Below are positions 10,618 through 41,636 of a DNA stretch of 49,959 nucleotides, in pieces. The position numbers were made by a program, and so were the translations under genes. The notes beneath the pieces are model-generated. The model did no database searches. It was not told where the DNA came from and saw only the letters and a program-made list of their open reading frames with translations. The stretch is from Nanobdellati archaeon. GTDB lineage: Archaea > EX4484-52 > GLR71. Each line of letters opens with the position of its first letter. Within the stretch, counting starts at the first letter, position 1. Location: positions 1 to 49,959 of the forward strand of contig JAHYJO010000011.1 of the NCBI GenBank assembly GCA_019429125.1, read 5' to 3'.

Positions 10618-11214
10618 TTGACAGATGATACTAACAATAACAGTACAAATCAAAAACTATCCGACATGTTTACTGAAATCAACGAATTTACAGAGGCAAT
10701 TAATGGAAAAAGTAAAAAACAAATACTAGATGATATTTTTTCTAAAATCAAAAAAGAAGGATATATCAAATATGCAGTACTTATAGGTTATAGTGGTTTT
10801 GTTGCATATTCATGTGGTGAATTGACACACGATGAGGCACAGATATATGCAGGACATGCACATAGACTTATGAACTTTTCAGGAATATTTGGTACTCAGA
10901 TGGATGAAAAATATGAAATACCTTATCTTTCTTTTGAACTTAATAAGATAAATACAGATTATACAGATACAGATTATACAGATACAGATCATACAGATAC
11001 AGATCATACAGATACAGATCATACAGATACAGATCATACAGATACAGATCATACAGATACAGATCATACACGTACTAAACAGATATTGATACATAAAGTA
11101 TCTGATACATATCTCCTGCTTGTAAAATATGATTCAAATACATCAGATTATTTAGGAAATGCAGTAGATACCATTCAGGAACAAGCTGAAAATATAAGAC
11201 GATTACTTTGTTAA
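10618..11214 (+). CDS. Roadblock/LC7-like protein with a TDTDH repeat loop
   Basis: The 198-aa protein starts at TTG 10618 with GGTGG 6-10 bases upstream. After a polar N-terminus (1-40) it shows the alternation expected of a Roadblock/LC7 fold: helix, strand YAVLIGYSGFVAY, helix DEAQIYAGHAHRLM, strand IPYLSFEL, then strands KQILIHKV and YLLLVKY and a final helix. The loop between the second and third strands is replaced by about 39 residues of TDTDH/TDY repeats (10954-11070). Roadblock proteins often regulate small GTPases or motility, but no partner gene is nearby. The fold assignment is an inference. The gene is flanked by minus-strand genes on both sides. Confidence 0.7.
   Translation: MTDDTNNNSTNQKLSDMFTEINEFTEAINGKSKKQILDDIFSKIKKEGYIKYAVLIGYSGFVAYSCGELTHDEAQIYAGHAHRLMNFSGIFGTQMDEKYEIPYLSFELNKINTDYTDTDYTDTDHTDTDHTDTDHTDTDHTDTDHTDTDHTRTKQILIHKVSDTYLLLVKYDSNTSDYLGNAVDTIQEQAENIRRLLC
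10954..11070 (+). repeat. 15-base in-frame tandem repeat (TDTDH)
   Basis: The unit ACAGATACAGATCAT repeats about 7.5 times. The first two units read TAT in place of CAT and the last six are identical. The period of 15 keeps the reading frame, so copy-number changes would lengthen or shorten an acidic/histidine loop without breaking the protein. Confidence 0.95.
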
Positions 11215-26635: not shown

Positions 26636-27316
26636 TCATCTGTCAATCAACTTTGCGGCTTTTATTATGAGGATGCCTGAATTGTATTCTGCTCTTTTTT
26701 CGGAATCTGTGATTTGTATCTTTTTCTTGAAGAAGGGCGCATCTAAGACTGTGGTCTCAAGCTCACCACCTTCACCTGCAGGGTTTATCTCGTATTTGTC
26801 TTTTAAGACGATTAGTTTTTCAATTATTTGTTTGTCTAGTTTTTTTCCTAGCCAAGTCTCGTCAAATGGGTATGCGAAGATGCCTGAAATTATTATGTTG
26901 TAGTCTTTTTCTACAAGCTCGTTTAACAGTTCTACTTGATCTTTCATCCAAAGTGGGTTGATGCATGCGAGGTCTAACTTGTCACAAATTGCTTGTATTC
27001 TTTTTGCTTGATAGATGGATTGTATTGCGCCTGTGACTATGCCCTCCAGATGGTATTTTTCTTTTGCGGTTTTGATTGCTTTTTCAAGGTCTTTCAACTC
27101 TTTTTCTTTTACGCCGTCGGTTTCGACTTTTAGAAGTGGTATGCCTATGGCTTCCGCCTGCAGGTTTGTGATGTTGATGTTGGGGGTGTGAAACATGTAG
27201 CTTTCCTTGTTTTTTGAAATGATGGTGATAAGGCAGACTACTTCTTCTTTTTGCATGGTGATATCTAGTGCATATGTGGAATCTTTGCCACCTGAAAATA
27301 AGACACCCAGTTTCAT
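26636..27316 (-). CDS. Diphthine-ammonia ligase (Dph6) family ATPase
   Basis: This N-type ATP pyrophosphatase performs the last step of diphthamide formation on elongation factor 2, amidating diphthine with ammonium. The 226-aa protein has the PP-loop MKLGVLFSGGKDSTYAL at the N-terminus, GIVTGAIQSIYQAKRI in the middle, and the family signature INPAGEGGELETTVLDAPFF near residue 180. Length and motifs match archaeal MJ0570-type proteins, which lack the C-terminal endoribonuclease-like domains of eukaryotic Dph6. The start is ATG 27316. It is a single gene with no clear operon partner. Confidence 0.93.
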   Translation of the reverse strand: MKLGVLFSGGKDSTYALDITMQKEEVVCLITIISKNKESYMFHTPNINITNLQAEAIGIPLLKVETDGVKEKELKDLEKAIKTAKEKYHLEGIVTGAIQSIYQAKRIQAICDKLDLACINPLWMKDQVELLNELVEKDYNIIISGIFAYPFDETWLGKKLDKQIIEKLIVLKDKYEINPAGEGGELETTVLDAPFFKKKIQITDSEKRAEYNSGILIIKAAKLIDR

Positions 27317-27443
27317 ATAGTTATAATCAGCAAGTAATTATTTAATGTTTTTTGTTGAAATTGATTGTATCAGATGGTATAAATTTGAAATTGTATAATC
27401 TGGAAGGGATTTAATATGGTTGGATATGGTAAAACTTATATAA

Positions 27444-27879
27444 CCTAAATTTGACAGTTTTAAAACTATTTCATTTTGAAAACCTATTTGACAGTTGGTA
27501 ATTATTGAGCATTTTTGCTTGAGTTAATCATGAAATTTATTTATTTTTTACTAAAATATACTAATTTTGGGATAAAAATAAGACTAAATGTCTTTTTTAT
27601 TCCTAATTTTTCTAAATTTTAGCCCAACTGTCAAATTCATTTGGCTAATTTTTGTGAATTTTCTTAATTTTTATTAAAGATTAAATCTGAATTTCAATAT
27701 AGATCAAACAATAATACAATATTTTGACTTGGGTATACAAACTGTCAAATAAAGTATTAAAAAATATGTGAAAAAACGTAATAAACACAATCAATTAACA
27801 TACTAATATCTTTCAAATTCAGTTTTTGAAAAAATGCTAAAAAATAAAAAAGGTCAGAAATGTCAAAGTTGGGCTATAA
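27444..27879. repeat. Duplicated element, copy 1, with four TTTGACAGTT sites
   Basis: This region is repeated at 40046-40393. Bases 27444-27494 match 40046-40096 almost perfectly, and from about 27623 to 27879 the similarity continues to 40393 with small gaps; copy 1 has roughly 80 extra bases between the two blocks. It contains TTTGACAGTT at 27450 and 27487 and the reverse complement AACTGTCAAA at 27626 and 27740. The right end covers the first codons of the zinc-ribbon gene at 27834. Apart from that gene I see only very short frames. Confidence 0.85.
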
Positions 27880-28106
27880 AAATAAATGATGGTGATAAGG
27901 TACAATATAAATGTCTGGTATGTGGTGACAAAATATTGAGTGCTGACATTTCTGAAAAGCCACCATGGATTATGGCATTTAAAGGATTCATGGATACACA
28001 GAATATTCCTTATTGCCCTAAATGTAATGAGATACCTAAATATAATGGAAACTCTATGAGTTTAACCACACATGAAAAAGAATCTATTATGAACTTTTTA
28101 GTATGA
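27834..28106 (+). CDS. Small zinc-ribbon protein, 90 aa
   Basis: The protein has four cysteines in two CxxC knuckles (CLVCGD near residue 29 and CPKCNE near residue 62) plus an early CQSW. This is a plausible zinc ribbon with a Trp-rich middle (EKPPWIMAFKGFM). It is lysine-rich at the N-terminus (MLKNKKGQK). I do not recognise the family. It follows a long non-coding region carrying repeated TTTGACAGTT sites, and a T9 tract follows the stop. The first 15 or so codons and the whole upstream region recur at 40046-40393, where the start codon and frame are lost, so this is the intact member of a duplicated unit. Confidence 0.7.
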   Translation: MLKNKKGQKCQSWAIKINDGDKVQYKCLVCGDKILSADISEKPPWIMAFKGFMDTQNIPYCPKCNEIPKYNGNSMSLTTHEKESIMNFLV

Positions 28107-28115
28107 TTTTTTTTT
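28107..28115 (+). terminator. T9 terminator after the zinc-ribbon gene
   Basis: Nine T directly follow the TGA stop, a typical archaeal oligo-T terminator, just before the end of the convergent helicase gene. Confidence 0.6.
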
Positions 28116-28119
28116 AAAA

Positions 28120-30042
28120 TCAAATCACATCAATGTCGCCCATTGAGTGTTCAATCTTTTCTTCTATTGATTTTAGAGCGTTCAATAGGTCTTTGTCTTT
28201 TGTCGCATTTTTAATCTGACCTATGCGATCAATTATCTGTCTGAATAGACGGATTGCGTCGCCCTCTAAAAGATTAGTATTATCAATTATATCAAAGATG
28301 CTCTCACCACTATAGCAGGGATAGACTAGTGCAGTCATATTTCTCATAGAATTGAATTTGTCAACTGTTGAAAGGTAATAATCTAACATTATTTTATCTT
28401 CGAGCTTGTGCACAGACGGATTGTCATACAACCTATAGAATTCGTCTTTGGGTTTTGCCTCATATGCAAGGCAGGCAACCAACAGGAATATATCATAGTC
28501 ATCAAGCGCCCTATAAAAGTCGGTGCCAAAAATCTCGCCGGTCGCAATCTCTTCGGAATATATCCGTGTTGTGAAAATGCCTTTAAGAGTCAATGTGTTA
28601 TCATCTATATAGCTCAGTTTCTCAAGTTCTTTTTTGATGTTGTTGAAGTTACGGTAGATGACGGCGGTCTTCTCAGTATCAAAACGGTTGCCATATTTTT
28701 GATAGGTATTGAAATTCTTGCACAATATATGATTTATCTCGTCAGGATTGTGTTGCCTAACTAGATTCAATACTGTGTTTACTGAAAGCCTAAACTGCGA
28801 TTTTATCGGCTCGGTATCATCAGTTGTCATATTTTTAAGTATTTCATAATTAAAGTCGCGCTGATCTACAATTGCATAGGCAAAACCTTGTTTGTCAATG
28901 CCACGGCGTCCCGCACGGCCTGCAATCTGGAAATATTCTTTTGAATTGAGATACCTGAAAGTTACACCGTCAAATTTCATCATAGAATCAAAGCATACGC
29001 TTTTTGCAGGCATATTAATACCTACTGCAAATGTTTCTGTCGTGTAGAGAACCTTGATTAGGCCTATTGAAAAAAGTTCCTCAACAAGCTCTTTGATTAT
29101 AGGTAAGAGTCCTGCGTGATGGAATGCAATCCCGTAAGGAAGTACATTTCTTAGATCTTGTGTAGATTTCAGATTATTTATTTCTTGTGGCGCAGCACTT
29201 AATTTTTTACGAACATAAGACGTTATCTCACTGTTTGTCTTGAACATGTCTGATTTTGAAAGTTCTAATGCGTTCTTCTGGCATTTCTGTCGGGAAAAAG
29301 TGAAAAAGAAACATGGTAATTTGTCTTTGATCTGAGATATGAGTTCTATGTGTGTCTTTATTTGATATATTTTCTTTTTTTGTGGTATTCTGAAACCTTT
29401 ATTGAATATTTTGTGCTTTCGTCTGTTTGCTTTTATGTCATCAAGTGTGGCAATGCCTAGTTCGCTGTCAAAAAAAGTCCGATGCAAAGGAACTGGGCGC
29501 ACGTCATTTATTATAGTATCAACCGTGTGGCCTTTTATGGCTTCAATCCAGTCCGCAAACTCGCGCGCGTTAGGAATCGTTGCTGAAAGGCAGAGCATGC
29601 GCACATTCTCGGCTGAAAACATTATGGACTCTTCCCAGACGTAACCGCGCTCGATATCATTTATGAAATGTATCTCGTCAAATATTACATAAGCTAAATT
29701 TTTCAATGCTGCATCTTTTATAATTGCCATGTTACGGTAAATCTCGGTTGTCATGATGACAATTGGCGCATTTGGATTTATTGTGATGTCACCAGTTATC
29801 AGACCAACACGTTCCTTGCCATATTCTTTTGAGAATTCTTTGTACTTCTGGTTTGACAGAGCTTTTATGGGGGCTGTGTAGATTACAGTTATGCCTTTAC
29901 CTATATATTTGTCTATTATGTAATCGGCGATAAGAGTCTTGCCTGAACCTGTGGGCGCAGAAACTACAACAGAATGATTATTATCGATTGAATCTATTGC
30001 ATCTACCTGAAACTTGTCCAATGTCAGACCTTTATAGTCCAT
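28120..30042 (-). CDS. Ski2-like superfamily 2 helicase
   Basis: An ATP-dependent RNA (or DNA) helicase of the Ski2/Mtr4/Dob1 group, 640 aa. Motifs: SAPTGSGKTLIADYI (Walker A), TAPIKALSNQKY (Ia), FDEIHFIND (DExH), LCLSATIPNAREFADWI, GIAFHHAGLLPIIKELV, LYTTETFAVGINMPAKSV and QIAGRAGRRGID (VI). The rest is a helical C-terminal region. It lacks the arch insertion of eukaryotic Mtr4 and is shorter than Hel308. Archaeal members are thought to act in RNA processing or with the exosome, which is an inference here. The frame is open to TTG 30096, but ATG 30042 has a TATA box exactly 27 bases upstream. Confidence 0.9.
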   Translation of the reverse strand: MDYKGLTLDKFQVDAIDSIDNNHSVVVSAPTGSGKTLIADYIIDKYIGKGITVIYTAPIKALSNQKYKEFSKEYGKERVGLITGDITINPNAPIVIMTTEIYRNMAIIKDAALKNLAYVIFDEIHFINDIERGYVWEESIMFSAENVRMLCLSATIPNAREFADWIEAIKGHTVDTIINDVRPVPLHRTFFDSELGIATLDDIKANRRKHKIFNKGFRIPQKKKIYQIKTHIELISQIKDKLPCFFFTFSRQKCQKNALELSKSDMFKTNSEITSYVRKKLSAAPQEINNLKSTQDLRNVLPYGIAFHHAGLLPIIKELVEELFSIGLIKVLYTTETFAVGINMPAKSVCFDSMMKFDGVTFRYLNSKEYFQIAGRAGRRGIDKQGFAYAIVDQRDFNYEILKNMTTDDTEPIKSQFRLSVNTVLNLVRQHNPDEINHILCKNFNTYQKYGNRFDTEKTAVIYRNFNNIKKELEKLSYIDDNTLTLKGIFTTRIYSEEIATGEIFGTDFYRALDDYDIFLLVACLAYEAKPKDEFYRLYDNPSVHKLEDKIMLDYYLSTVDKFNSMRNMTALVYPCYSGESIFDIIDNTNLLEGDAIRLFRQIIDRIGQIKNATKDKDLLNALKSIEEKIEHSMGDIDVI

Positions 30043-30065
30043 AGTAATATTTCGGTGAAAGACAC

Positions 30066-30072
30066 ATATAAA
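30066..30072 (-). promoter_or_regulatory. TATA box of the helicase gene
   Basis: TTTATAT on the minus strand is centred 27 bases before ATG 30042 and decides that start. Confidence 0.6.
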
Positions 30073-30129
30073 GGAGTAGTGTTTGACAATATTCAAAATT
30101 AAAAAAATTGTTTAAGAATTAGTCCTAAA

Positions 30130-30744
30130 TCAAGACTTAATCTTCTTTAGCCGGAAGACGTTTTCTCGCTCCATCTCTTCAAGACGCAGTTTGATGAAGG
30201 CTTCTTGTTCTTTCATCTCAGGGATTGCTTTAAACTCTAGCGCATTTACACGGCGCTTGGTCTTTTCAATCTCTTCAATTAGGCGCCGGACAGATGTCTC
30301 AACTTCGGCTGCAAGGATAATTTTCTGAACTACTTGTTCATAACCGTTTGTTGCTTCATTTATGTAAGGTGAACATTTTACTCGGCCGTAACCACGCTCA
30401 AAAATTGATTTTCTGACGCTGTCTGAACTTATCTTTGGGACAACCACACCCATTATGTTTTTTGTATCTAGAGTTATTACTGGCTTGTCTTTTAGTGCGG
30501 TGGCTGCTGAAATTAAAGCCGTCTTTCCATCAATTGCTTGCGCAATATCTACGTCAGTCTTGGCTTTTGCATAGATCTCATTAAGCTCGGTACGGATGGT
30601 CTTTGCTTTCTTTAAAATCTCAAAAAAATCTAGGATTAGACCGTCTCTTTTTTTCTTGAGAAGATTGTGGCCTGATTTTGCAAGCCGTATCTTCTGCTTA
30701 AGCTTCATCAATTCTGACCTTGTTGGTTTTACTTCAGATGCCAT
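30130..30744 (-). CDS. atpD: A-type ATP synthase subunit D
   Basis: This is the central stalk (rotor shaft) subunit that turns inside the A3B3 head. The 204-aa protein has the typical start of the family, VKPTRSELMKLKQKIRLAKSGHNLLKKKRDGLI, split here as two long coiled-coil helices at the N- and C-terminal ends, with VRRLIEEIEKTKRRVNALE in the second. It is the last gene of the H-I-K-E-C-F-A-B-D operon, 16 bases after subunit B. The sequence before ATG 30744 contains TTGGTGA as ribosome binding site. Confidence 0.95.
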   Translation of the reverse strand: MASEVKPTRSELMKLKQKIRLAKSGHNLLKKKRDGLILDFFEILKKAKTIRTELNEIYAKAKTDVDIAQAIDGKTALISAATALKDKPVITLDTKNIMGVVVPKISSDSVRKSIFERGYGRVKCSPYINEATNGYEQVVQKIILAAEVETSVRRLIEEIEKTKRRVNALEFKAIPEMKEQEAFIKLRLEEMERENVFRLKKIKS

Positions 30745-30760
30745 AGTTTGTCACCAATAT

Positions 30761-32167
30761 TTAAGACTTGTCTTTGTTACCTTCTTTGCCATCTTTTTCG
30801 TTTCCGGATTTAAGATATTTCTCTTTCAAGTCTTTGCTGATTCTTCCAAGCTCATCTTTTGGTATGTTTGAAAGAAGGTCCCATGAAAGTTTAAGTGTCT
30901 CCTCAATAGTCCTGTCTTCATACAATGACTGCTTTACAAATTGGTTCTCAAACTGTTCTGCAAACCTTAAAAGACGCCTGTCTTTTTCTGAAAGCGCTTC
31001 TTCACCGACGATAGCTACAAGACCTCGCAAGTCACGGCCCTCAGCATAGTTTGCATAAAGTTGGTCTGATACTTGCTTGTGGTCTTCCCTTGTTTTTCCT
31101 TTACCAATACCTGAATTCATAAGTCTTGATAGTGATGGTAATACATCTACAGGCGGATAGTTACCTTTCCTGTGAAGCTCACGAGATAGCACAATCTGGC
31201 CTTCAGTTATGTATCCTGTAAGGTCTGGAATTGGGTGTGTTATGTCATCACCTACCATAGTCAATATTGGGATCTGTGTTACTGAACCTTTCTTCCCTTT
31301 GATGATACCTGCACGTTCATAGATCATTGCAAGGTCTGTGTACATGTAACCGGGGTATCCTCGTCGTCCAGGTACTTCTTCTCTTGCAGCACCTATTTCT
31401 CTTAAGGATTCACAGTAGTTTGTCATATCTGTCAATATGACTAAAACATGCATGCCTTTTTCATAAGCTAAATATTCAGCTGCTGTCAATGCCATCCTTG
31501 GAGTTACAAGTCGTTCTACTGCTGGGTCATCTGCAAGATTTAAAAATACTGTTGCGTGTTCAAGAGCACCAGTCTGTTCAAAATCGTCAATAAACTTCTG
31601 TGCATCCTCATTTGTGATACCCATTGCTGCAAAGACTACAGCAAAGTCGCCTTTTTGACCTAATACTTTCGCCTGTCTTGCAATCTGCAATGCTATATCA
31701 TTGTGAGGAAGACCTGAAGCTGAAAATATTGGCAGTTTCTGACCACGGACTAGTGTGTTCATTAAGTCTATTGTTGAAATACCAGTTTGTATGAAATCTG
31801 CAGGGGACTGTCTTGCGTAAGGGTTTATTGCCGCACCTAGGATATCCATCTGTTTTTCTGGTATTATCTCTGAACCGCCATCTATTGGTTTACCTGCACC
31901 GTTAAATATACGTCCTAAGATTTCTTGAGATACTGGCAGGCTGATTGTCTCACCAAGGAAACGTACAGATGACTGCTGGTCAATACCACTTGTGCCTTCA
32001 AATATCTGAACGACTACCATATCATCTGAAGTATCCAGTACCTGACCATTTTTTGTTTCGCCAGATGAAAGCATGACCTTTACAACTTCACCATAACTTA
32101 CAGGGTGAGTCTTTTCTACAAATACTAAAGGTCCTGCAATTCTTTTGATTGTCTTATAATCTTTCAT
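30761..32167 (-). CDS. atpB: A-type ATP synthase subunit B
   Basis: The non-catalytic nucleotide-binding subunit of the A3B3 head, 468 aa. Seen: [20 protein letters not shown], the degenerate P-loop region [56 protein letters not shown] (quoted in part; about residues 255-290) and [20 protein letters not shown]. Three in-frame ATGs exist at 32182, 32179 and 32167. The last is preceded by GGTG at a normal spacing, and the first overlaps the stop codon of subunit A. The C-terminus carries a short lysine/glycine-rich tail. Confidence 0.96.
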
Positions 32168-32178
32168 CTTAAACACCA

Positions 32179-33963
32179 TCATTCAAGGTTATCAAATTCC
32201 TTGTCCATATCTTTTGTTATCTTATCCAAAAGTCCATTATAATCTTTCTCAAACTTGACATCAGCAATCATGTTTTTTGATTTCATCAAAATGATTGATG
32301 TTGCTGGAATGCCATTATCCAATGCCTCCACGGCACGGGATGCGAAATGAAGTATTATCTCCATAAGTCTGCATGTCTTTTTTGTGTCACAGTATGTGTC
32401 AACGTCGTGGAATGCATTCTGCTGCAGGAAATATTCTCTTATCATCCTTCCAACTTCAAGTGTGACTTGTTGTTTTTCTGGTAATGCATCTGAACCTACA
32501 AGCTGGACAATTTCCTGAAGTTTTTCTTCTTCTTGTAAAATTACCATGAATTCAGATACTAATTCTGGCCATTTAGGTGATACATTTTCTGCAAACCAGG
32601 GGTTCAATGTATTGTTATAAAGACTGTACGAAGTCAACCAGTTTATTGAAGGGAAATGTCTTCTTTGAGCCAGTTTTGCATCAAGTGCCCAGAACGATTT
32701 TGTGACACGCAATGTGTTTTGTGTGACAGGTTCTGAAAAGTCTCCACCAGGTGGCGATACTGCACCGATTATTGTTACTGAACCATCTTTGTCAGTTCCT
32801 AGTGGTGTGACTCGTCCTGCTCGCTCATAAAACTCTGCAAGTCTTGTTGACAGGTATGCTGGGTAACCTTCTTCACCGGGCATCTCTTCTAGACGTGAGG
32901 AGATTTCACGCATAGCTTCAGCCCAACGTGATGTTGAGTCAGCCATCAATGCTACTGAATATCCCATATCACGGTAATATTCTGCGATTGTGATTCCTGT
33001 GTAGATTGAAGCCTCTCTTGCTGCAACTGGCATGTTGGATGTGTTTGCAATCAAAACTGTTCGGTTCATAAGAGCCTTTCCAGTCTTTGGGTCAATCAGG
33101 TGAGGGAATTCAGTCAATACTTCTGTCATCTCATTGCCTCTTTCACCGCAACCAATATATACTATTATGTCTGCATCAGACCATTTTGCTAGAGCTTGCT
33201 GAGTTACTGTCTTTCCTGCACCGAAAGGTCCAGGGATTGCTGCTGCACCACCTTTTGCAAGAGGGAAGAGTGCATCTAAAACTCGCTGACCTGTAATTAA
33301 TGGTATGCTTGGTAGTAGTTTTTTTCGGGATTTTCTAGGGATTCGGATTGGCCATTTATTTGCAAGCTTTAATTGTTTTCTATCCTCTAAAGTGCCTATC
33401 ACTTCTGTAACATTATATTTTCCAGATTTTATGTCTTTTATTTTTGTCTCTTCGAAATTAGAAGGTATCATGATACTGTGCACTACAGTTTCACTTTCTT
33501 GTACTGTACCTATTATGTCTCCACCTTTTACAGTGTCGCCTTTTTTTACAGTTGCATTGAATTCCCATATTTTCTTAAGGTCAAGACCTGAAGCTGTGAC
33601 ACCACGAGTTATGAAGTCACCCATGCTTTCCATGATGACTGGAAGCGGTCTCTGGATACCATCGTAAATGGATCTCAAAAGTCCTGGACCTAGATAAACA
33701 GTTAATGGCGCACCTGTCGTGACTACGGGTTCACCAGGCATTAAGCCTGTTGTATCTTCATAGACTTGGATGACACTCTTGTCACCATCAATCTGTATGA
33801 CTTCGCCCATAAGAGCTTCGTTACCTACATGGACCACATCATACATCTTTGCAGAGATGCCTTTTGCTACAACAACGGGTCCTGCAATCCTGTAAATCTT
33901 ACCATCTGTCTTAGAGATATCTTTCTTGTCTGTCTGTTTGTCCAATACTTTTTTTGCAACCAT
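32179..33963 (-). CDS. atpA: A-type ATP synthase catalytic subunit A
   Basis: The ATP-making (or hydrolysing) subunit, 594 aa. It has [15 protein letters not shown], the non-homologous insert around residues 120-200, the P-loop [18 protein letters not shown] (family type GPFGSGKT), [31 protein letters not shown] and [17 protein letters not shown]. No intein interrupts the P-loop, unlike some archaeal homologues. ATG 33963 is preceded by AGGTGA; the GTG at 33975 is part of that site. An extra lysine/aspartate-rich stretch of about 20 residues precedes the core. It is coupled to subunit B by overlapping stop and start codons. Confidence 0.97.
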
Positions 33964-34004
33964 ATCACAAATCACCTAAACTTCAATATTATTAATTGTT
34001 TTAT

Positions 34005-34133
34005 CTGTTATCATTATCTGTTATCATTATCTGTTATCATTATCTGTTATCATTATCTGTTATCATTATCTGTTATCATTATCTGTTATCATTATCGGTT
34101 ATCATTATCGGTTATCATTATCTGTTATATTGT
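34005..34133. repeat. 13-base tandem repeat inside the ATP synthase operon
   Basis: CTGTTATCATTAT repeats nine times in succession (starts at 34005, 34018 and so on to 34109; units 8 and 9 have CGG for CTG) and then decays to about 34165. The period is not a multiple of three and the region lies between the subunit F stop and the subunit A start, so it is transcribed but not translated. It forms most of a 225-base gap in an otherwise tight operon. Confidence 0.95.
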
Positions 34134-34188
34134 TGTATCTATTATCATTATCTGTTATTGTTGTATCATAATTTTAACAGCAATATTA

Positions 34189-34500
34189 TCATTCTTTGTT
34201 CCAGACATCTACACCGATTGCTTTTTTTATTTGTTTTCTTAGGCGATCGTCGGATGTTGTCTCTTCACTGACCATAACTGTTACTGGCCTTACCGAACTG
34301 TCAAAATTGTCTTGCAACCGTTGAGGTAACGCTTCAACTGTTGCTTTGTGCATGATAAGGATGCCTATGTTTTTGTTCTTTAGGGCTTCAGACAATTTAG
34401 TTGCGACATCATTATCGTCTGCAACTATTGTGTCTTTAATCCCTGCAAGCTCAAAACCTATGATAAAATCTGGTTTTCCTAAAACTACTATGTCTGGCAT
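34189..34500 (-). CDS. atpF: A-type ATP synthase subunit F
   Basis: This small central-stalk subunit binds subunit D, at 103 aa. It has the CheY-like layout of the family: PDIVVLGKPDFIIGFELAGI at the start, NIGILIMHKATVEALPQ in the middle and a C-terminal helix RLRKQIKKAIGVDVW. ATG 34500 is chosen over the upstream GTG 34509. It lies between subunit C and the 13-base repeat region that precedes subunit A. Confidence 0.93.
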   Translation of the reverse strand: MPDIVVLGKPDFIIGFELAGIKDTIVADDNDVATKLSEALKNKNIGILIMHKATVEALPQRLQDNFDSSVRPVTVMVSEETTSDDRLRKQIKKAIGVDVWNKE

Positions 34501-34530
34501 AAATATCACATGTATTATAATATTACAATA

Positions 34531-35613
34531 TTAAATTATCAAGTTTTCCTCAATGAACTTTTCTGGTAGGTTGAGTGATTTTGAGCGAGATATAAGCTTA
34601 AGGTTTCTTATCTCTACCTCTTTTGCAAGTATGTATCCTAATACTGGCGCTATCGTAAGTGGATGCTTGTGCAATAACAGGAATGCTTTTTTCATTAGTT
34701 TCTTGTCAAGTCCGCGACGGATAACCTTAAGAGATCCTTTTAGAGCTTCATCAATTCCTGATTTAATTTCAACTGAATATGAGGTTTTATTTATTAGGAT
34801 ATCGAGTGCGCCTTCAATGTCTTTTGCAGATGCTGCGGATTCAAGGACAGGTAATGATATGTCTGCAGCAGGGGTTATTAATAGTTGCATGATATCTTTT
34901 TTTTCAAGACCTTCATTTTTCATGATAAGCAATGTGTTGATGTTTAAAATATCTATCTCATTCCTTAAGAATGTCTTGAATTCAGATGCATGTTTTGGAA
35001 GTTTATCAGCTATACACATAAGGTATCTGTAATAGTTTATGTCAAGCCAGTTCTCAACAGATGCCAGAGTTAAGTCATCACCTTTAGGTTTGGGTATTGA
35101 TGATGTTGCGTGGGGTAAAATATTTTGGAACATTGGGTCTTCAACGATGTCAGATATTGTCTTTTTCTTTAGCAAATCTAATAGGTTTTTCTTATTTACG
35201 TTGCAACCAGACATTAATCTTAAAGATATCTCATCTTTGGGTATCTCTGAATTTAGACACCTAAGTATTGTTTTTATGTTTTCTATATCAATCCTTAACA
35301 TATATTTTTGTATCAATTCTTTTGTGTCGCCCTTTGAAAGGTGTATCACTTTCTGAAAACATTTTGAGGCATTATTGTTTAAAGCAACCTCAATTAAGTC
35401 AGCACCTGCGTATCTTACTGCAAACTCATCTATTTGGGCTTTGTATTCACCCTCTTCTAAGAAATGAGATATTTCAGCAGAGGTCATCTTTAACAATCTA
35501 TGATATTGATCTTTGGAAATTAGTTTTGAAGACATGACACGGACTCTTGTATTTAAGTAAGGGTCTCTGTGTAGTTTCAATTTATCTATAGTTATTGTCT
35601 TGTCTTTTTTCAT
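34531..35613 (-). CDS. atpC: A-type ATP synthase subunit C
   Basis: A helical, funnel-shaped subunit (homologue of V-ATPase d) joining the central stalk to the c-ring. The 360-aa protein has the three related helical domains of the family with repeated acidic and leucine-rich segments; YLNTRVRVMSSKLIS near the start and PLTIAPVLGYILAKEVEIRNL near the end are characteristic. An in-frame ATG at 35628 would add five residues; neither start has a strong ribosome binding site, so the exact start is uncertain. The gene follows subunit E closely in the operon. Confidence 0.92.
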   Translation of the reverse strand: MKKDKTITIDKLKLHRDPYLNTRVRVMSSKLISKDQYHRLLKMTSAEISHFLEEGEYKAQIDEFAVRYAGADLIEVALNNNASKCFQKVIHLSKGDTKELIQKYMLRIDIENIKTILRCLNSEIPKDEISLRLMSGCNVNKKNLLDLLKKKTISDIVEDPMFQNILPHATSSIPKPKGDDLTLASVENWLDINYYRYLMCIADKLPKHASEFKTFLRNEIDILNINTLLIMKNEGLEKKDIMQLLITPAADISLPVLESAASAKDIEGALDILINKTSYSVEIKSGIDEALKGSLKVIRRGLDKKLMKKAFLLLHKHPLTIAPVLGYILAKEVEIRNLKLISRSKSLNLPEKFIEENLII

Positions 35614-35650
35614 CTTAACCAAAACCATATATTATATATCTAACATCTAT

Positions 35651-36211
35651 CTAGTTGAAAAGTATATCTGCTACAGATTTCAATGTGTCTTTTCTTATAG
35701 TCTCTAAAAGCAGGTCAAATGAATTGTCAATACGGACAGTACCATCACTATTTTCTATTATGATGCCACCTAACATGTCTTTTTCTGAGACAACCATATC
35801 TTTTGCAAAAGGTTTTACAAGTGACAGGTCATTTTTGTTGACATAGACTCTTTTTGCATCAGGCATCTGTTCCAAAGCTTCATACATAAGTTTTTGTAGC
35901 AGGGTCTTTCTTGTGTCTGCATCAAAATCAGTAATCTTTAATTTAACAGCTGCATAAGTCTTGTCAATTATGTCTTTTTTTGCATCAAGTAATGGTCTCT
36001 TGACCGCAAGACTAGCTGATGCAAGTTCTTTTTTGTCCAATGTTACAATTTGCGCTTCAGTCTTTGCTTTAGCTACATTAATCAATTCTTCTGATTTTTT
36101 CTTTGCGTCAGTAAGAATGACTTCCGCCGTTGCCTTTGTCTCAGCTTCAAGATTTTTTATCCTGTCTTCTACATCTGCTAAAATCTGTCCGGATACGTTC
36201 TCTAAACTCAT
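35651..36211 (-). CDS. atpE: A-type ATP synthase subunit E
   Basis: A peripheral stalk subunit that pairs with subunit H to hold the head still. The 186-aa protein has a long N-terminal coiled-coil helix (ENVSGQILADVEDRIKNLEA and on to about residue 75) and a globular C-terminal domain with KMLGGIIIENSDGTVRIDNSF-like family sequence (KDMLGGIIIENSDG seen near residue 150). ATG 36211 is preceded by AAAGGG; ATG 36220 is a less likely start. It lies between the proteolipid gene and subunit C. Confidence 0.94.
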   Translation of the reverse strand: MSLENVSGQILADVEDRIKNLEAETKATAEVILTDAKKKSEELINVAKAKTEAQIVTLDKKELASASLAVKRPLLDAKKDIIDKTYAAVKLKITDFDADTRKTLLQKLMYEALEQMPDAKRVYVNKNDLSLVKPFAKDMVVSEKDMLGGIIIENSDGTVRIDNSFDLLLETIRKDTLKSVADILFN

Positions 36212-36296
36212 TAAAATCATCCCTTTTAATATTAAAACTAATGATGGTCCTTAAGACCATCAATCAATTGCAAATCTTATACTTATCAATCCGTAA

Positions 36297-36509
36297 TCAA
36301 GCACCAAGAATCATGTACGAAATAACGAAACCAAAAAGCACAATTGTCTCTGGAAGCACAGTCATGATTAGACCTTTTACGAATAAGTCTTCGTTCTCTG
36401 CAATTGCACCGACGGCTGCGGTGCCAATCTCTTTCTCTGCAATAGCTGCTGCAATGGCTGAAAGACCAATCGCGAGCGCTGCTGCAATAGCTGTTATAGG
36501 TTCTACCAT
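36297..36509 (-). CDS. atpK: A-type ATP synthase subunit K (c-ring proteolipid)
   Basis: The ion-carrying rotor subunit, 70 aa, with two membrane helices: ITAIAAALAIGLSAIAAAIAE and LIMTVLPETIVLFGFVIS, joined by the polar loop EIGTAAVGAIAENEDLF. The ion-binding carboxylate is the glutamate of LPETIVLFG in the second helix. It is a single hairpin, not the fused double or triple hairpin of some archaea. The first helix lacks an obvious Q/E sodium-binding set beyond the polar loop, so ion choice (proton or sodium) is not settled. GGTGA precedes ATG 36509. Confidence 0.95.
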   Translation of the reverse strand: MVEPITAIAAALAIGLSAIAAAIAEKEIGTAAVGAIAENEDLFVKGLIMTVLPETIVLFGFVISYMILGA

Positions 36510-36596
36510 ATTTTTCACCATTTTATTTAGTTATTTTTTAAATTAAATTAAATATCATATTTAGTATCTATTTAGTATCTATTTAGTATATATCAC

Positions 36597-38432
36597 TCAA
36601 GCGCGTCTTCCAAACGGCATATACTTCTGACCGCCACCCTGATAAAATTTCATGAAAAATTCTACATAATGAAGTCTCATAGAATGGATGAAAGGAGAGA
36701 GGAAACCAAGGAAGATTGCAATTGAGTGTCCGGCAACAAGGATAATTGTTCCCATAACCAGACCAATTCCACCTGAGCTAAATGCCATGCCTGCCATCTC
36801 GTTAACCACTAATGCCAAGATTGCTGAAGCCAGACCTACTGCCATAAGACGTGAGTAGGATAGTATGTTTGCAACTATTGATGGCAGTTCAAACAGACCT
36901 TTTAGACCTTCACCAATAGTTATCATTATTACTGACACAAGCAGGATTGCCACACCAGCGGTCATGTTCCCTAAAGCTAACAAGACTCCGCCTGCCTGAA
37001 GGAACATCCAGCTTGCTTTTTCAAGGATTGCAGCTTTCAGTCCGTGCGCTTTTAGCATGTTATAAAAACCAATCATAAGACCCATGTTGACATGGACAAT
37101 ACCCATACCTATGGATAAATTAAGAAGAGTTATCGGATGATTGAGCCTGTGAAGTATTGGTGTCATCTCATAACCTAATATATGTTCTGCACCGAAAAAT
37201 TCACCGAAGACGATACCGAATACCGCTGTCATAAATGAGGCGAACATTAATACTGAAAGGACTGATCTTATCTCGTCACCTTTTGCTTTCATACGTATTA
37301 TGAAAAATAATGCTAATGTCAGAAGACCATAACCTAGGTCACCTAACATAAAACCAAAAAATAATGGGAATGTTAAGAACATGAAAAATGTAGGGTCAAT
37401 CTCGCGGTATGATGGACGTGAATATAAGTTAATCAGGAACTCAAACGGTTTTACTCCTTTTGGATTTTTTAGTTCTATTGGTGCACCATCTTCTGCTTTT
37501 CTAGACTTTATATAAATTTTTTCGTCTGTTTTTTTTCTGAGCTCGGATTCCATTGACTTAAAATCTTCTTGTGGAACCCAGCCCTCAATGACGAAAGCAT
37601 TTTTACTTTCTGCAAATCTCAGAGGTGCTTCCCCTACCTCAATGTCACGTGAAAAATTGGATTCGTTGTCTATTATGAAAGATGAATATTTATCACCTAA
37701 AGCATTCATCTCACTTTTTATCTTATTTTTTTCAGCTGTCAGGTGCTCATATTCATCTGAAATCGTTTTTAAGACATTTTCGGATTTCCCTTCAAACTCT
37801 TCCAGACATCTTAAGTTTATCTGAACAAAACCATTGTTTGAAAGAAGAGAGGATGTCGCATCAGTCTTGTCTTTTACCACAAAGAGGGCAATCACTTGTC
37901 TGCCTAAATAGTTAGCATGGAACATCTCTGTGTTTTCTGTAATTAATAATAATTCTTTTTTGAATTTAGATATGTCTATATTTTTGGGCAGATAACCGAC
38001 CTTGTAAGAGAGACTATCATATTGAGTAAACACTTTCCAATCAAGACCTAAACTTGATATAGGTGCTACTATATCTTCTTTTGCTTTAAGGAGTGATAAG
38101 GAATCATTAATATATTTTATCTTGTCTATAGATTCTACAATTTGCACATCTATTTTATTTATCTGTTCAGATATAGCTTTTTGATTTGGTTTGTCAATAG
38201 ATACTACTTTATTGCCTTTACTTTTGATAATGTTCAAATGTTTTTTTATAGAACGAAGTTTGATTATGTCTTCAGAGAGATTAGATGCTTTTTTGGTAGG
38301 TGTACCAATATCTAAAACGGTTTCATCAGAAGGTTTTGTATAATCATCAATGTGTAAAATACCTTTATCATAAAAAAATGAGACAGCTGTAGCCATTATG
38401 CTCTTTGGTCCTGCAACGGTCACTTTGCACAT
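36597..38432 (-). CDS. atpI: A-type ATP synthase subunit I (a-subunit)
   Basis: The stator membrane subunit (homologue of V-ATPase a), 611 aa. The first half is cytoplasmic and helical, with CKVTVAGPKSIMATAVSFFY at the start and EGWVPQEDFKSMESEL near residue 285. The second half has about seven to eight membrane helices from about residue 345 (FFMFLTFPLFFGFMLGDLGY onwards), including LANILSYSRLMAVGLASAI-like ANILSYSRLMAVGLA, which carries the essential arginine, and the end FLSPFIHSMRLHYVEFFMKF. The frame is open to TTG 38450; ATG 38432 is given as the start. It lies between subunits H and K. Confidence 0.95.
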   Translation of the reverse strand: MCKVTVAGPKSIMATAVSFFYDKGILHIDDYTKPSDETVLDIGTPTKKASNLSEDIIKLRSIKKHLNIIKSKGNKVVSIDKPNQKAISEQINKIDVQIVESIDKIKYINDSLSLLKAKEDIVAPISSLGLDWKVFTQYDSLSYKVGYLPKNIDISKFKKELLLITENTEMFHANYLGRQVIALFVVKDKTDATSSLLSNNGFVQINLRCLEEFEGKSENVLKTISDEYEHLTAEKNKIKSEMNALGDKYSSFIIDNESNFSRDIEVGEAPLRFAESKNAFVIEGWVPQEDFKSMESELRKKTDEKIYIKSRKAEDGAPIELKNPKGVKPFEFLINLYSRPSYREIDPTFFMFLTFPLFFGFMLGDLGYGLLTLALFFIIRMKAKGDEIRSVLSVLMFASFMTAVFGIVFGEFFGAEHILGYEMTPILHRLNHPITLLNLSIGMGIVHVNMGLMIGFYNMLKAHGLKAAILEKASWMFLQAGGVLLALGNMTAGVAILLVSVIMITIGEGLKGLFELPSIVANILSYSRLMAVGLASAILALVVNEMAGMAFSSGGIGLVMGTIILVAGHSIAIFLGFLSPFIHSMRLHYVEFFMKFYQGGGQKYMPFGRRA

Positions 38433-38490
38433 CTTTTTTGGTTTAAGCAATTATATCACACACCGATTGTATCATTTATTTTGAGATTAT

Positions 38491-38835
38491 TCAAGCGTTA
38501 TTTTTATTTATTGTATTAAGAAATTCTGAGATTATATAATCTGTTGCTTTTTTAATGTTTTTTTCTGATTTCTTTACAAAAGCAGATGTCTCTTTATTGC
38601 TTATATTAAATGCATTTTCTCTTTTTTCTAAGATAAGTCTTTTTGCGTCATCAAGCATCTGTTTTGAAGTCTCTTCAGCTTCTTCTTTTGCATCATCAAT
38701 CCAGCTTGTTGCCATCTGTCTCGCTTTTGCTAGTGTCTTCTCTTGCTTTTCAGAAGCATCTTTTTCAAGTTGCGACGCTTTCTTCTCAACTTTTTTTATC
38801 TCAAGCAGTATATCTGCATTAGCTGTATCGGACAT
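38491..38835 (-). CDS. atpH: A-type ATP synthase subunit H
   Basis: This peripheral stalk coiled-coil protein forms a heterodimer with subunit E. The 114-aa protein is almost wholly charged helix (EIKKVEKKASQLEKDA, KARQMATSWIDDAKEEAEE, KRLILEKRENAF), with heptad and right-handed hendecad spacing of alanines typical of the family. It is the first gene of the nine-gene ATP synthase operon. ATG 38835 is chosen, with GGTGATG upstream; ATGs at 38844 and 38850 are also in frame. The operon promoter lies about 55 bases upstream. Confidence 0.9.
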   Translation of the reverse strand: MSDTANADILLEIKKVEKKASQLEKDASEKQEKTLAKARQMATSWIDDAKEEAEETSKQMLDDAKRLILEKRENAFNISNKETSAFVKKSEKNIKKATDYIISEFLNTINKNNA

Positions 38836-38885
38836 AAAAATCATCACCAAATATATCTCTCAATTTTTCTTTAGGTGTCCAGAAC

Positions 38886-38895
38886 GTATATATAG
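38886..38895 (-). promoter_or_regulatory. TATA box of the ATP synthase operon
   Basis: CTATATATAC on the minus strand is centred about 55 bases before the first gene, predicting a transcript start near 38864 and a leader of about 30 bases that contains GGTGATG. It is the only clear promoter I see for the nine genes. Confidence 0.55.
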
Positions 38896-38973
38896 GATTA
38901 TGGTATGGACTATAATAGTTATAGGGTAAGGTTAATAAAGATAATCTATATAATCACTATATATCTATATAGA

Positions 38974-38981
38974 TTTATATA
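38974..38981 (+). promoter_or_regulatory. TATA box of the PhoU-like gene
   Basis: TTTATATA is centred 27 bases before TTG 39005, implying a leaderless transcript with a TTG start. The surrounding bases hold several overlapping TATATAGAT copies. Confidence 0.55.
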
Positions 38982-39004
38982 GATTATTTTTGAAATAATG
39001 GTGT

Positions 39005-40024
39005 TTGACAATAGAAACTAGAAAGATACAGGCAACAGGTGGTGGAGGTACATACATACTCTCACTTCCTAAAAAATGGATAAAAAAGTACAATCTTAAG
39101 CGACAGGATGACATTAACATATTTTCTAAAGATGATGGCGCACTTGTGCTTTTGCCTGCGATAAAAAGAGAGAACAAAAATATAATAATAGATGCAGACA
39201 GCATGTCTACAAGATATATCATAAGGCGTATGATTGGCACATACATAAACGGTGCTGACCAGATTAATATAATCGGACCTATCAGTCGGGAAGACAGAAG
39301 ACTTATCAGGTCGGCGGCAAAAGATATGCTCATAGGTGTCGAGATTTCAGAAGATCAAGACAAGATTTCAATACAGTGTATAATAGACATATCAAAATTA
39401 TCGAACAGGAAAATATTTGAAAACGCATACAAAGCAACCAACTGGATGTATATCACTGTGTTTTCTGCGCTTTATGAGAGAGACAGCGAGCTTGCAAAAG
39501 ATGTAATAGAACAAGACAGTGATGTTGACAAGCTGACCATACTTGCCATAAGATTATTGAACCTTGCTGCAAAAGACCCAAGCTTTTCTGAGTGTGTCGA
39601 GATTGCAGGGTGCGACGCATTGAATTACAGGGCACTTATAGACCATATCGAGACTATGGCAGACCATTGCGTAAATATTGCACAGGCAATAACTGATATT
39701 ATAGATAAAGAGATACCGACAGACCTGATAAATAAAATTATTGAAACCTCTAAAAAAGTCAATAAAATATATGCAGAGGTATTCTATGCATTCTGGTATA
39801 GGAAACCTGAACTTGCAAATAAGACTATTGAAGACGCGACAGAAATTGAGACTGGTATGCTATCTATTGAAAACAAAAGCAAGATACTCACAGATAAAAG
39901 GATTACAGACACAGCTGATGTTGTCGGAGCAATTGCTATAATTATAGATAATATAGGATCAATATTACATATATCCAAAAATATAGGTGAGCTTGTGATT
40001 GATATGGAAGAGGAGTGCAAATAG
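39005..40024 (+). CDS. PhoU-like regulator with AbrB/SpoVT N-terminal domain
   Basis: The 339-aa protein combines an N-terminal swapped-hairpin AbrB-type domain (about residues 1-50; TRKIQATGGGGTYILSLPKKWIKK, given here in part as TGGGGTYILSLPKKWIKK) with a helical PhoU-type region from about 110 to 335. Two related three-helix bundles contain IDHIETMADHCVNIAQAITD and DVVGAIAIIIDNIGSILHIS. PhoU proteins control phosphate uptake and bind metal clusters through acidic E/DxxxD motifs. The archaeal AbrB-PhoU fusions are predicted DNA-binding phosphate regulators. No pst transport genes are in the window. It diverges from the ATP synthase operon, and the TTG start fits the TATA position. Confidence 0.88.
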   Translation: MTIETRKIQATGGGGTYILSLPKKWIKKYNLKRQDDINIFSKDDGALVLLPAIKRENKNIIIDADSMSTRYIIRRMIGTYINGADQINIIGPISREDRRLIRSAAKDMLIGVEISEDQDKISIQCIIDISKLSNRKIFENAYKATNWMYITVFSALYERDSELAKDVIEQDSDVDKLTILAIRLLNLAAKDPSFSECVEIAGCDALNYRALIDHIETMADHCVNIAQAITDIIDKEIPTDLINKIIETSKKVNKIYAEVFYAFWYRKPELANKTIEDATEIETGMLSIENKSKILTDKRITDTADVVGAIAIIIDNIGSILHISKNIGELVIDMEEECK

Positions 40025-40045
40025 TCTTAAGTAATATATATTTAT

Positions 40046-40393
40046 CCTAAATTTGACAGTTTTAAAACTATTTCATTCTGAAAACCTATTTGATAGAAGT
40101 CCATTTTTAGCAATTTTTGTAAATTTTAACCCAACTGTCAAATTCATTTGGCTAATTTTGGTGAATTTTTTTAATTTTTAGTCTGAGTTAAATCTGAATT
40201 TCAATATAGATTAAACCATAATAACATATTAACATATTTTAATTGGGGCATATAAACTGTCAACTTGAGTATTGAAAAATAAGTGAAAAAACATAAAAAA
40301 AGCAATCCAGTAATATACTAATGTCTGTCAAATCCAGTATTAAAAAAACGCTAGAAAAATAAAAAAGGTCATAAATGTCAAAATTGGGTTACA
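40046..40393. repeat. Duplicated element, copy 2, with a broken zinc-ribbon gene start
   Basis: This is a diverged copy of 27444-27879. It keeps TTTGACAGTT at 40052, a decayed site TTTGATAG at 40089, and AACTGTCAAA at 40133 and AACTGTCAA at 40255. At 40348 the zinc-ribbon start codon is ACG instead of ATG, and one extra base shifts the frame into a TAA, so the gene is dead. Similarity ends near 40393, after about 15 codons. Confidence 0.82.
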
Positions 40394-40592
40394 CGCAGAT
40401 TTATACTTTATTTTGCGATGATGTTGAAGCATAAAAGAAAAAAAATAATCATAAAATTCACAAAAATAATACCTAAATTTAGACTATCAATTTAGAGTTA
40501 TCCATTATCTATAGCTCTTGTTGTACAATATTTACATTTTGAGACACTTCTTGATTATAAGGATTATATTTATTCGCTTGTATAGGATTTGT
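40394..40592. other. Intergenic remainder, no gene seen
   Basis: This AT-rich DNA lies between the copy-2 element and the end of the membrane protein gene. The longest frame starting with ATG is a 24-residue lysine-rich peptide at about 40423, which I do not consider a gene. Confidence 0.5.
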
Positions 40593-41636
40593 TTAATTTG
40601 AGTTTGTTGAGTTTGGATTGTTTGTATATTTGTCAGAACTTAAAATCTTTTGTTTAGGGTGGAGGCTATACCCTGAAGTTGAATCTTTTTTGTGGGGTTT
40701 AGATTCTGCATTGAATTGACTTGCAATGATTACTATGATGTTTTTCAAGAATAAATTAAGCATCTCTAAAAACATGAATATCGTAAGGAATGTTATGTGA
40801 GGATAGAACTGCTTGAATAATGTCAATATTTTTTGTGTAGAATCTATCGAATCTTTTTGGTTTTCATCAAAAGTTGATAGTTGCATATCAATTGATGATT
40901 TTGCCAGTTTGTCAATTTCTGCCATGCTGCTGTTTATTGCATTGAAACATCTCATTTTTTCGGAGGTTGTAAGGTCTGAGGGGACACTGTAGATACCATA
41001 TAATACTGATGTCTCTATAGCTTCTATCTGCGCATAGTTAGCCTCTTTCTGCTGGTCAGACATCTGCTGCTGTAATGAGTCCATATCAGAGATATCTATA
41101 CCACCCATAGATTGACTCATTGATGACATCTCTTTCTCTGCATAAGAAGGATTTACAACAAGAACCATAAATACTGTAAGAGCTAATGAGATGTTTAAGA
41201 TTGTGAGACCTTTTGAGACCACACCACTTAATATATTATATATTTTGGGTCTTTTTAATTTTTCTTTTTCTTTTCTTATAGATGTCAAGACTTGAAAATA
41301 TGCGATAAAAATACCTAACGAGAATATGATACTTGGTACTGAAAATGAATGAGATATCACGATGATTATTGAAATTAAAGCGGATATTAGAAGTATTGAG
41401 TTATCATGTTTTTCATTATATGCATAGATTGAAAAAAAAGCAAAAGATGTACAGAACATGATTAAAGATAGACCAACTAATAACCAACTTACCCCAATAC
41501 TTGTGCCTGCGAAAATTTCAGAGATAAAACTCATTGGAGATAAGAGTCTGTTGAAAGAAAAACCAGAACCCAACATCAAAATTATGAAAATGACTGAAGA
41601 TACAAAATAAACTATCATGTTATTATTATATTTCAT
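40593..41636 (-). CDS. Hypothetical polytopic membrane protein, 347 aa
   Basis: I do not recognise this protein. It has about six membrane helices: MIVYFVSSVIFIILMLGSGF, SWLLVGLSLIMFCTSFAFFS, LLISALISIIIVISHSF, SIIFSLGIFIAYFQV, LNISLALTVFMVLVV and ITFLTIFMFLEMLNLFL. Between the last two is a roughly 110-residue loop rich in Met, Gln and Ser (MSSMSQSMGGIDISDMDSLQ). The C-terminal 45 residues are polar and cytoplasmic. ATG 41636 lies 26 bases after the stop of the giant surface protein gene, so they are probably one operon. The large loop likely faces outside, next to the surface protein. Confidence 0.72.
   Translation of the reverse strand: MKYNNNMIVYFVSSVIFIILMLGSGFSFNRLLSPMSFISEIFAGTSIGVSWLLVGLSLIMFCTSFAFFSIYAYNEKHDNSILLISALISIIIVISHSFSVPSIIFSLGIFIAYFQVLTSIRKEKEKLKRPKIYNILSGVVSKGLTILNISLALTVFMVLVVNPSYAEKEMSSMSQSMGGIDISDMDSLQQQMSDQQKEANYAQIEAIETSVLYGIYSVPSDLTTSEKMRCFNAINSSMAEIDKLAKSSIDMQLSTFDENQKDSIDSTQKILTLFKQFYPHITFLTIFMFLEMLNLFLKNIIVIIASQFNAESKPHKKDSTSGYSLHPKQKILSSDKYTNNPNSTNSN

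Follow-up and report, generated by a model that had tools for sequence, protein, structure and literature searches.

Within the 49,959-nt stretch of a Nanobdellati archaeon contig analysed here (the window; JAHYJO010000011.1), a segment of some 430 bases next to a small zinc-ribbon gene has a shorter counterpart elsewhere, and both carry a short oriented motif, TTTGACAGTT. Is this a regulator with its own operators, an autoregulated selfish unit, a duplicated region or a mobile element? The puzzling repeat can be settled as a mobile element. It is almost certainly a gene-less MITE (miniature inverted-repeat element), a non-autonomous, internally deleted derivative of an archaeal insertion sequence (IS) of the IS1634 family, most probably mobilised by an IS1634-type transposase supplied in trans. 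This reading follows from the number of copies, their sharp ends, the 6-bp duplications of the target, the empty site in a same-genus genome, and a related IS that has the same ends. Of the options offered by an earlier reading made from the letters of the window alone (the sequence-only reading), the small transposon-like element was thus the right one.

The regions 27444–27879 and about 40046–40393 had been taken as homologous, which they are, but the element proper is shorter in both. Copy 1 spans 27444–27873 (+ strand, 430 bp), with the terminal inverted repeats CCTAAATTTGACAGTT and CCCAACTTTGACATTT at ends common to 15 both-ended copies. The bases up to 27879 belong to the target-site duplication, ATATAA on the left (27438–27443) and CTATAA on the right (27874–27879), identical at 5 of 6 positions. 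Copy 2 spans 40046–40388 (+ strand, 343 bp). It is intergenic and internally deleted, without a clear target duplication.

The interrupted zinc-ribbon gene and its empty site

Copy 1 lies at codon 10 of a host gene for a small zinc-ribbon protein. The 5′ piece of the gene (MVGYGKTYI-) was found at 27416–27443 and the 3′ piece at 27880–28106, both on the + strand and separated by the MITE. With the element present, the native start at 27416 gives only MVGYGKTYIT and then a stop. In a genome of the same genus (G006), an intact zinc-ribbon gene (MVGNTEEYILIDGDKVHYECPVCG...) is located between diphthamide synthase and helicase, as in the host, without the element. When 27444–27873 and one duplication were removed from the window, an intact 84-aa gene was restored, its translation (MVGYGKTYIKINDGDKVQYKCLVCG...) matching that of G006.

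The sequence-only reading had recognized a 90-aa ORF at 27834–28106 (+ strand) and suggested a homologue search with its product. Homologues were found in two same-genus genomes, but they aligned only from residue 17. About 15 first codons of this ORF correspond to the MITE end plus the target duplication, and the remainder to the host gene. Because removal of the element restores the 84-aa gene matching the G006 homologue, the 90-aa ORF is a chimera with MITE-derived first codons. Its start is an ATG within the MITE, at a place where the aligned copies generally have ACG. The ACG of copy 2 is thus the general state, not a decayed start as had been thought, and the ATG of copy 1 is the exception. 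Nor does each copy run into the same zinc-ribbon gene: the gene is single-copy in the host genome, a zinc-ribbon scan of genome_contigs gave no relative, and copy 2 shares only the right end of the MITE.

As an addition to the MITE reading, copy 1 could have been exapted, so that the zinc-ribbon gene now takes its start codon and 5′ region from the MITE end. In favour of this, the ATG that stands in place of the general ACG is in frame with a 3′ part otherwise free of interruptions. However, one substitution may be chance, and a young insertion would likewise leave the 3′ part open. We consider exaptation conceivable, but rather unlikely.

Copies, target duplications and the parent insertion sequence

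With copy 1 as query, the MITE was found at ~28 places in the 1.16-Mb host genome, as intact, truncated or nested copies. Several of these matches are at contig ends, as expected because repeats break assemblies, and some may be halves of one copy. In the copy alignment the intact copies are sharply bounded by CCYAASTTTGACAGTT at the left and by AAATGTCAAAGTTGGG at the right, two sequences that form an inverted repeat, and a pattern search across the host genome returned the same ends. The length of the both-ended copies outside the window was mostly 388–495 bp; a single copy measured 165 bp, and two with extra sequence reached ~695 bp. No ORF was common to the copies. Fourteen of the 15 both-ended copies appear intergenic, the exception being copy 1. 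An Rfam search of 27000–41000 gave no structured-RNA match. Some MITE copies (L022, C27:1989–2598; L025, C16:34014–34708; L016, C14:137–510) include, or lie directly beside, a further stretch in common, around GTATTTGTTTAGC, which may represent a second repeat family nested within the MITE.

The 6-bp flanks of the both-ended copies had 69% matches, versus 57% in shuffled pairs (p = 0.002, n = 15). Perfect 6-bp duplications were present in 5 of the 15, with 0.87 expected: CTTAAG, TTAAAA (twice), TAATAA and TTTTAA. Duplication lengths of 2–5 and 7–10 gave no signal in the same 15 copies. The right boundary was set at a conserved GGG in the copy alignment and came out best in an offset scan; right ends placed 3 bp farther out gave no target-duplication signal. 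The whole-genome search for sharp-ended, duplication-flanked copies, as proposed by the sequence-only reading, thus points to a mobile element.

Searching 60 related archaea, we found in G013 a 1,564-bp IS (L036:1506–3069) with the same terminal repeats as the MITE. It encodes a 476-aa transposase of the IS1634 family (curated NCBI model NF033559, 194.8 bits against a cut-off of 100), and has no perfect duplication (3/6). Over their left 219 bp, the longer MITE copies are 72–75% identical to the left end of this IS. In copy 1 this left arm (27444–27662, − strand) matches the G013 element at its transposase-3′ end with 72% identity and retains decayed codons of the transposase C-terminus (blastn of 1–219 against 1–219; tblastn). 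In sister copies the C-terminus is legible by tblastn over 43 codons, with 51% identity and a best E of 9e-8. The left ~219 bp of the MITE derive from the transposase-gene end of the IS. No source was identified for the MITE middle (about 220–414).

Relatives of the transposase were found in sequences labelled Nanohalarchaeota, Aenigmatarchaeota, Methanoperedens, Methanolobus and Methanosarcina, the hosts of the archaeal IS1634 clade compared here, and in a Heimdallarchaeote. Those for which both ends were found had the same kind of terminal core, and several had 6-bp duplications, mostly AT-rich. Their lengths (1,564–1,858 bp) and ends (CCYAASTTTGACA and variants) agree with the traits published for IS1634: 1500–2000 bp, ends C-----YT, and 5–6 bp AT-rich duplications (PMC2266710). 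With this clade of 1.5–1.9 kb elements the MITE shares the transposase family, through its parent, the C-starting ends, the mostly AT-rich 6-bp duplication and the terminal core TTTGACAGTT; it differs in having no transposase gene. Among viruses the transposase clade had one match, in a putative viral contig; the plasmids searched gave only distant bacterial IS1634, and the phages searched none.

The MITE was absent from the six same-genus genomes searched, and related elements were carried by other families of the same order, among the 60 related archaea searched with it. The host assembly gave no close transposase. Its single detected IS1634 gene (C27, L062) is distant, with ~33% identity over part of its length and without the TTTGACA[CG] motif. 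The assembly is 93% complete, and the helper transposase may be extinct or encoded in the missing ~6.5%. Three other genomes have gene-less elements of 336–553 bp (L053, L040 and L039, in G012, G025 and G033), which share the terminal repeats of the MITE but differ in their interiors, where several TTTGACAGTT sites occur; L040 had a perfect TTAAAA duplication. G012 and G033, like G013, belong to the same order as the host.

Mobilisation by an IS5-type transposase, encoded beside the copy at C19:49780, is very improbable. MITE-like sequence does lie just upstream of that gene, but it reads as a decayed MITE copy abutting it. A matching right end was not seen on the far side of the gene, and the IS5 transposase had no relative in the genomes that carry MITE-type ends. 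We rejected this helper as an unrelated gene that a decayed MITE abuts. The gene itself (L031:4584–5402, C19) is a single IS5-family transposase gene of 273 aa, directly 3′ of the decayed copy, and the 60 related genomes gave no relative. A simple segmental duplication of one intergenic region, the outcome the sequence-only reading had set against its own proposal, would suit the two similar copies in the window, but the ~28 copies are dispersed, share both ends, and have unrelated flanks and 6-bp duplications, which rules it out for practical purposes.

The family thus has the features by which a MITE is recognized: a length below ~600 bp without an intact transposase, terminal inverted repeats with sharp ends, a fixed-length, AT-rich target-site duplication of 6 bp, multiple dispersed copies together with an unoccupied site (in G006), and a related autonomous element with the same ends, present in G013 and not in the host assembly. 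Other prokaryotic MITEs, e.g., SM1–SM4 of Sulfolobus (25–44 copies) and MITEAba12 (PMC10969869), are likewise IS-derived, smaller than 0.6 kb, without a working gene, bounded by terminal inverted repeats and target duplications, and present in tens of mostly intergenic copies. The family described here differs in its IS1634 parent, its DPANN-type host, its at least five oriented copies of the recognition core, and its left arm, a fragment of a transposase gene. A recent review names Sulfolobus, haloarchaea and Desulfurococcus as the main archaeal carriers of MITEs, with no mention of IS1634 (PMC10969869), and nothing pairing DPANN with miniature inverted-repeat elements was found in our literature search, whose coverage was incomplete. 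The result is an IS1634-derived MITE family, with clear disruption of a gene, in a DPANN-type archaeon, a kind of host for which few such elements seem to have been described.

Putative recognition-motif sites in the window

In copy 1, exact matches to the motif were found in the left terminal repeat (27450–27459, +), at a subterminal position (27487–27496, +), matched by a motif at the equivalent position of the G013 IS left end, and at two internal positions (27626–27635, −; 27740–27749, −). The first of these internal sites corresponds by homology to the site, described below, that encodes NLTV within the transposase ORF. In copy 2 the sites at 40052 (+) and 40133 (−) were exact, the one at 40255 (−) had one mismatch, and that at 40089 was decayed. 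The four sites per copy of the sequence-only reading are therefore real, in position and orientation, but its count was incomplete: each copy has an additional terminal site, at 27858–27867 (−) in the right terminal repeat (TTTGACATTT) of copy 1, and at 40373 (−) in copy 2.

Allowing up to 1 mismatch, the decamer TTTGACAGTT occurred 23 times in the window, with 8.7 expected and a maximum of 18 in shuffles (n = 100). The excess is due to the two MITE copies. Outside them the sites in the window occurred at about chance frequency and gave no regulon signal of the kind that the sequence-only reading had proposed to look for. In the MITE family, the motif sites at positions 7, 183 and 415 were within the most conserved 4% of 10-mers, while those at 297 (12%) and 44 (39%) were less distinctive or not distinctive at all. 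Our preferred reading of the TTTGACAGTT sites is as putative transposase-recognition sites.

The other options of the sequence-only reading, in which the zinc-ribbon protein and its upstream operator-like DNA form an autoregulated selfish or regulatory unit, have next to no probability left. A small zinc-binding ORF does begin within copy 1, in frame, but there are ~28 elements and only one zinc-ribbon gene, which belongs to the host; residues 1–16 of the 90-aa ORF have no homologue, and the homologous gene of G006, in the same genus, has no element. We thus rejected this unit and retained the MITE reading.

Elsewhere in the window, at 10618–11214, there is an ORF with an in-frame tandem repeat encoding a run of DTDHT units.

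Motif copies inside the transposase reading frame

The archaeal IS1634 clade repeats its terminal core internally, also within the transposase ORF. In nearly all of the 29 non-redundant transposase loci sampled from the main clade, the ORF had two motif copies in one orientation; both L075 and L077 had them, and the loci without both sites were mostly broken or truncated genes. The sites encode NLTL (residues 363–366) and NLTV (441–444, both in G013 protein numbering) and are 234 bp apart. Their codons hardly vary: Leu364 was TTG in 26/26 and Thr365 ACA in 27/27 genes, Leu442 was TTG in 24/28 and Thr443 ACA in 25/26. Among 116 conserved degenerate columns, Leu364, Thr365, Leu442 and Thr443 ranked 1, 2, 6 and 3, and the adjacent codons vary. 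The transposases share ancestry, and the dual-coding argument rests on these column ranks within genes, not on raw counts.

A second IS1634 clade (L060, L061 and L117–L123), with 31–32% identity, had two TTTGACA[C/G] sites in each of 9/9 genes, in the same direction and 69 bp apart. Its terminal core, where ends were found, was TTCGCCA. The second site occupies the homologous NLT position; the first lies elsewhere than in the main clade, and its residues vary (INLTL, ESLTL, INLTE, ISLTQ). Synonymous-codon shuffles of the correctly read genes of both clades predicted 0.05–0.34 sites per gene. Control IS1634 genes from other groups (n = 12) together had a single embedded TTTGACA site, against 0.83 expected, which makes the embedded sites clade-specific. 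We designed the test for embedded sites once the pattern had been seen; the second clade and the control groups were independent of the forming of the idea.

The simplest reading of the frozen sites is that selection would act on the DNA motif itself. Because the embedded motif equals the core of the transposon ends, our best guess is a putative transposase-binding site. We consider it likely that two archaeal IS1634 clades carry, within their ORFs, same-direction pairs of the end motif under both DNA and protein selection, that the functional end reaches several hundred bases into the coding sequence, and that the MITEs keep such sites. The functional transposon end thus seems to extend into the gene, and MITEs keeping coding-embedded sites would explain the odd orientations noticed by the sequence-only reading.

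Under this model, a transposase supplied in trans would recognise TTTGACAGTT internally as well as at the two ends, and its binding to terminal, subterminal and internal motifs would pair the ends. Insertion at an AT-rich hexamer would then generate the 6-bp target duplication. In the parent IS, the transposase-3′ end has a terminal and a subterminal site facing inward, followed by opposite-facing sites in the C-terminal codons. An internal deletion sparing the ends and the nearest embedded site would leave MITEs movable in trans, and their layout, with the two left sites in one orientation and the rest in the opposite one, would be inherited from the parent. Copy 1 would have jumped into codon 10 of the zinc-ribbon gene; the intergenic copy 2 has lost part of its interior.

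Phage Mu and Tn7 have several short copies of their recognition sequences at and near each end. The IS1634 clade shares such multi-site ends; its array of putative sites differs in lying partly in the transposase reading frame, with frozen synonymous positions. Dual-coded internal sites of this kind seem not to have been described before: the literature searched, again with incomplete coverage, gave no account of recognition sites embedded in the coding sequence of transposases. The transposase gene would be under an apparent double constraint, encoding the enzyme and holding the motif of the ends on which the enzyme works. The embedded sites bear on end recognition in IS1634, on possible self-regulation, and on why MITEs keep particular internal pieces.

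In most elements among L074–L095 with both sites found, the distance between the NLTV site and the subterminal site was ~130 or 140 bp, a difference of roughly one helical turn.
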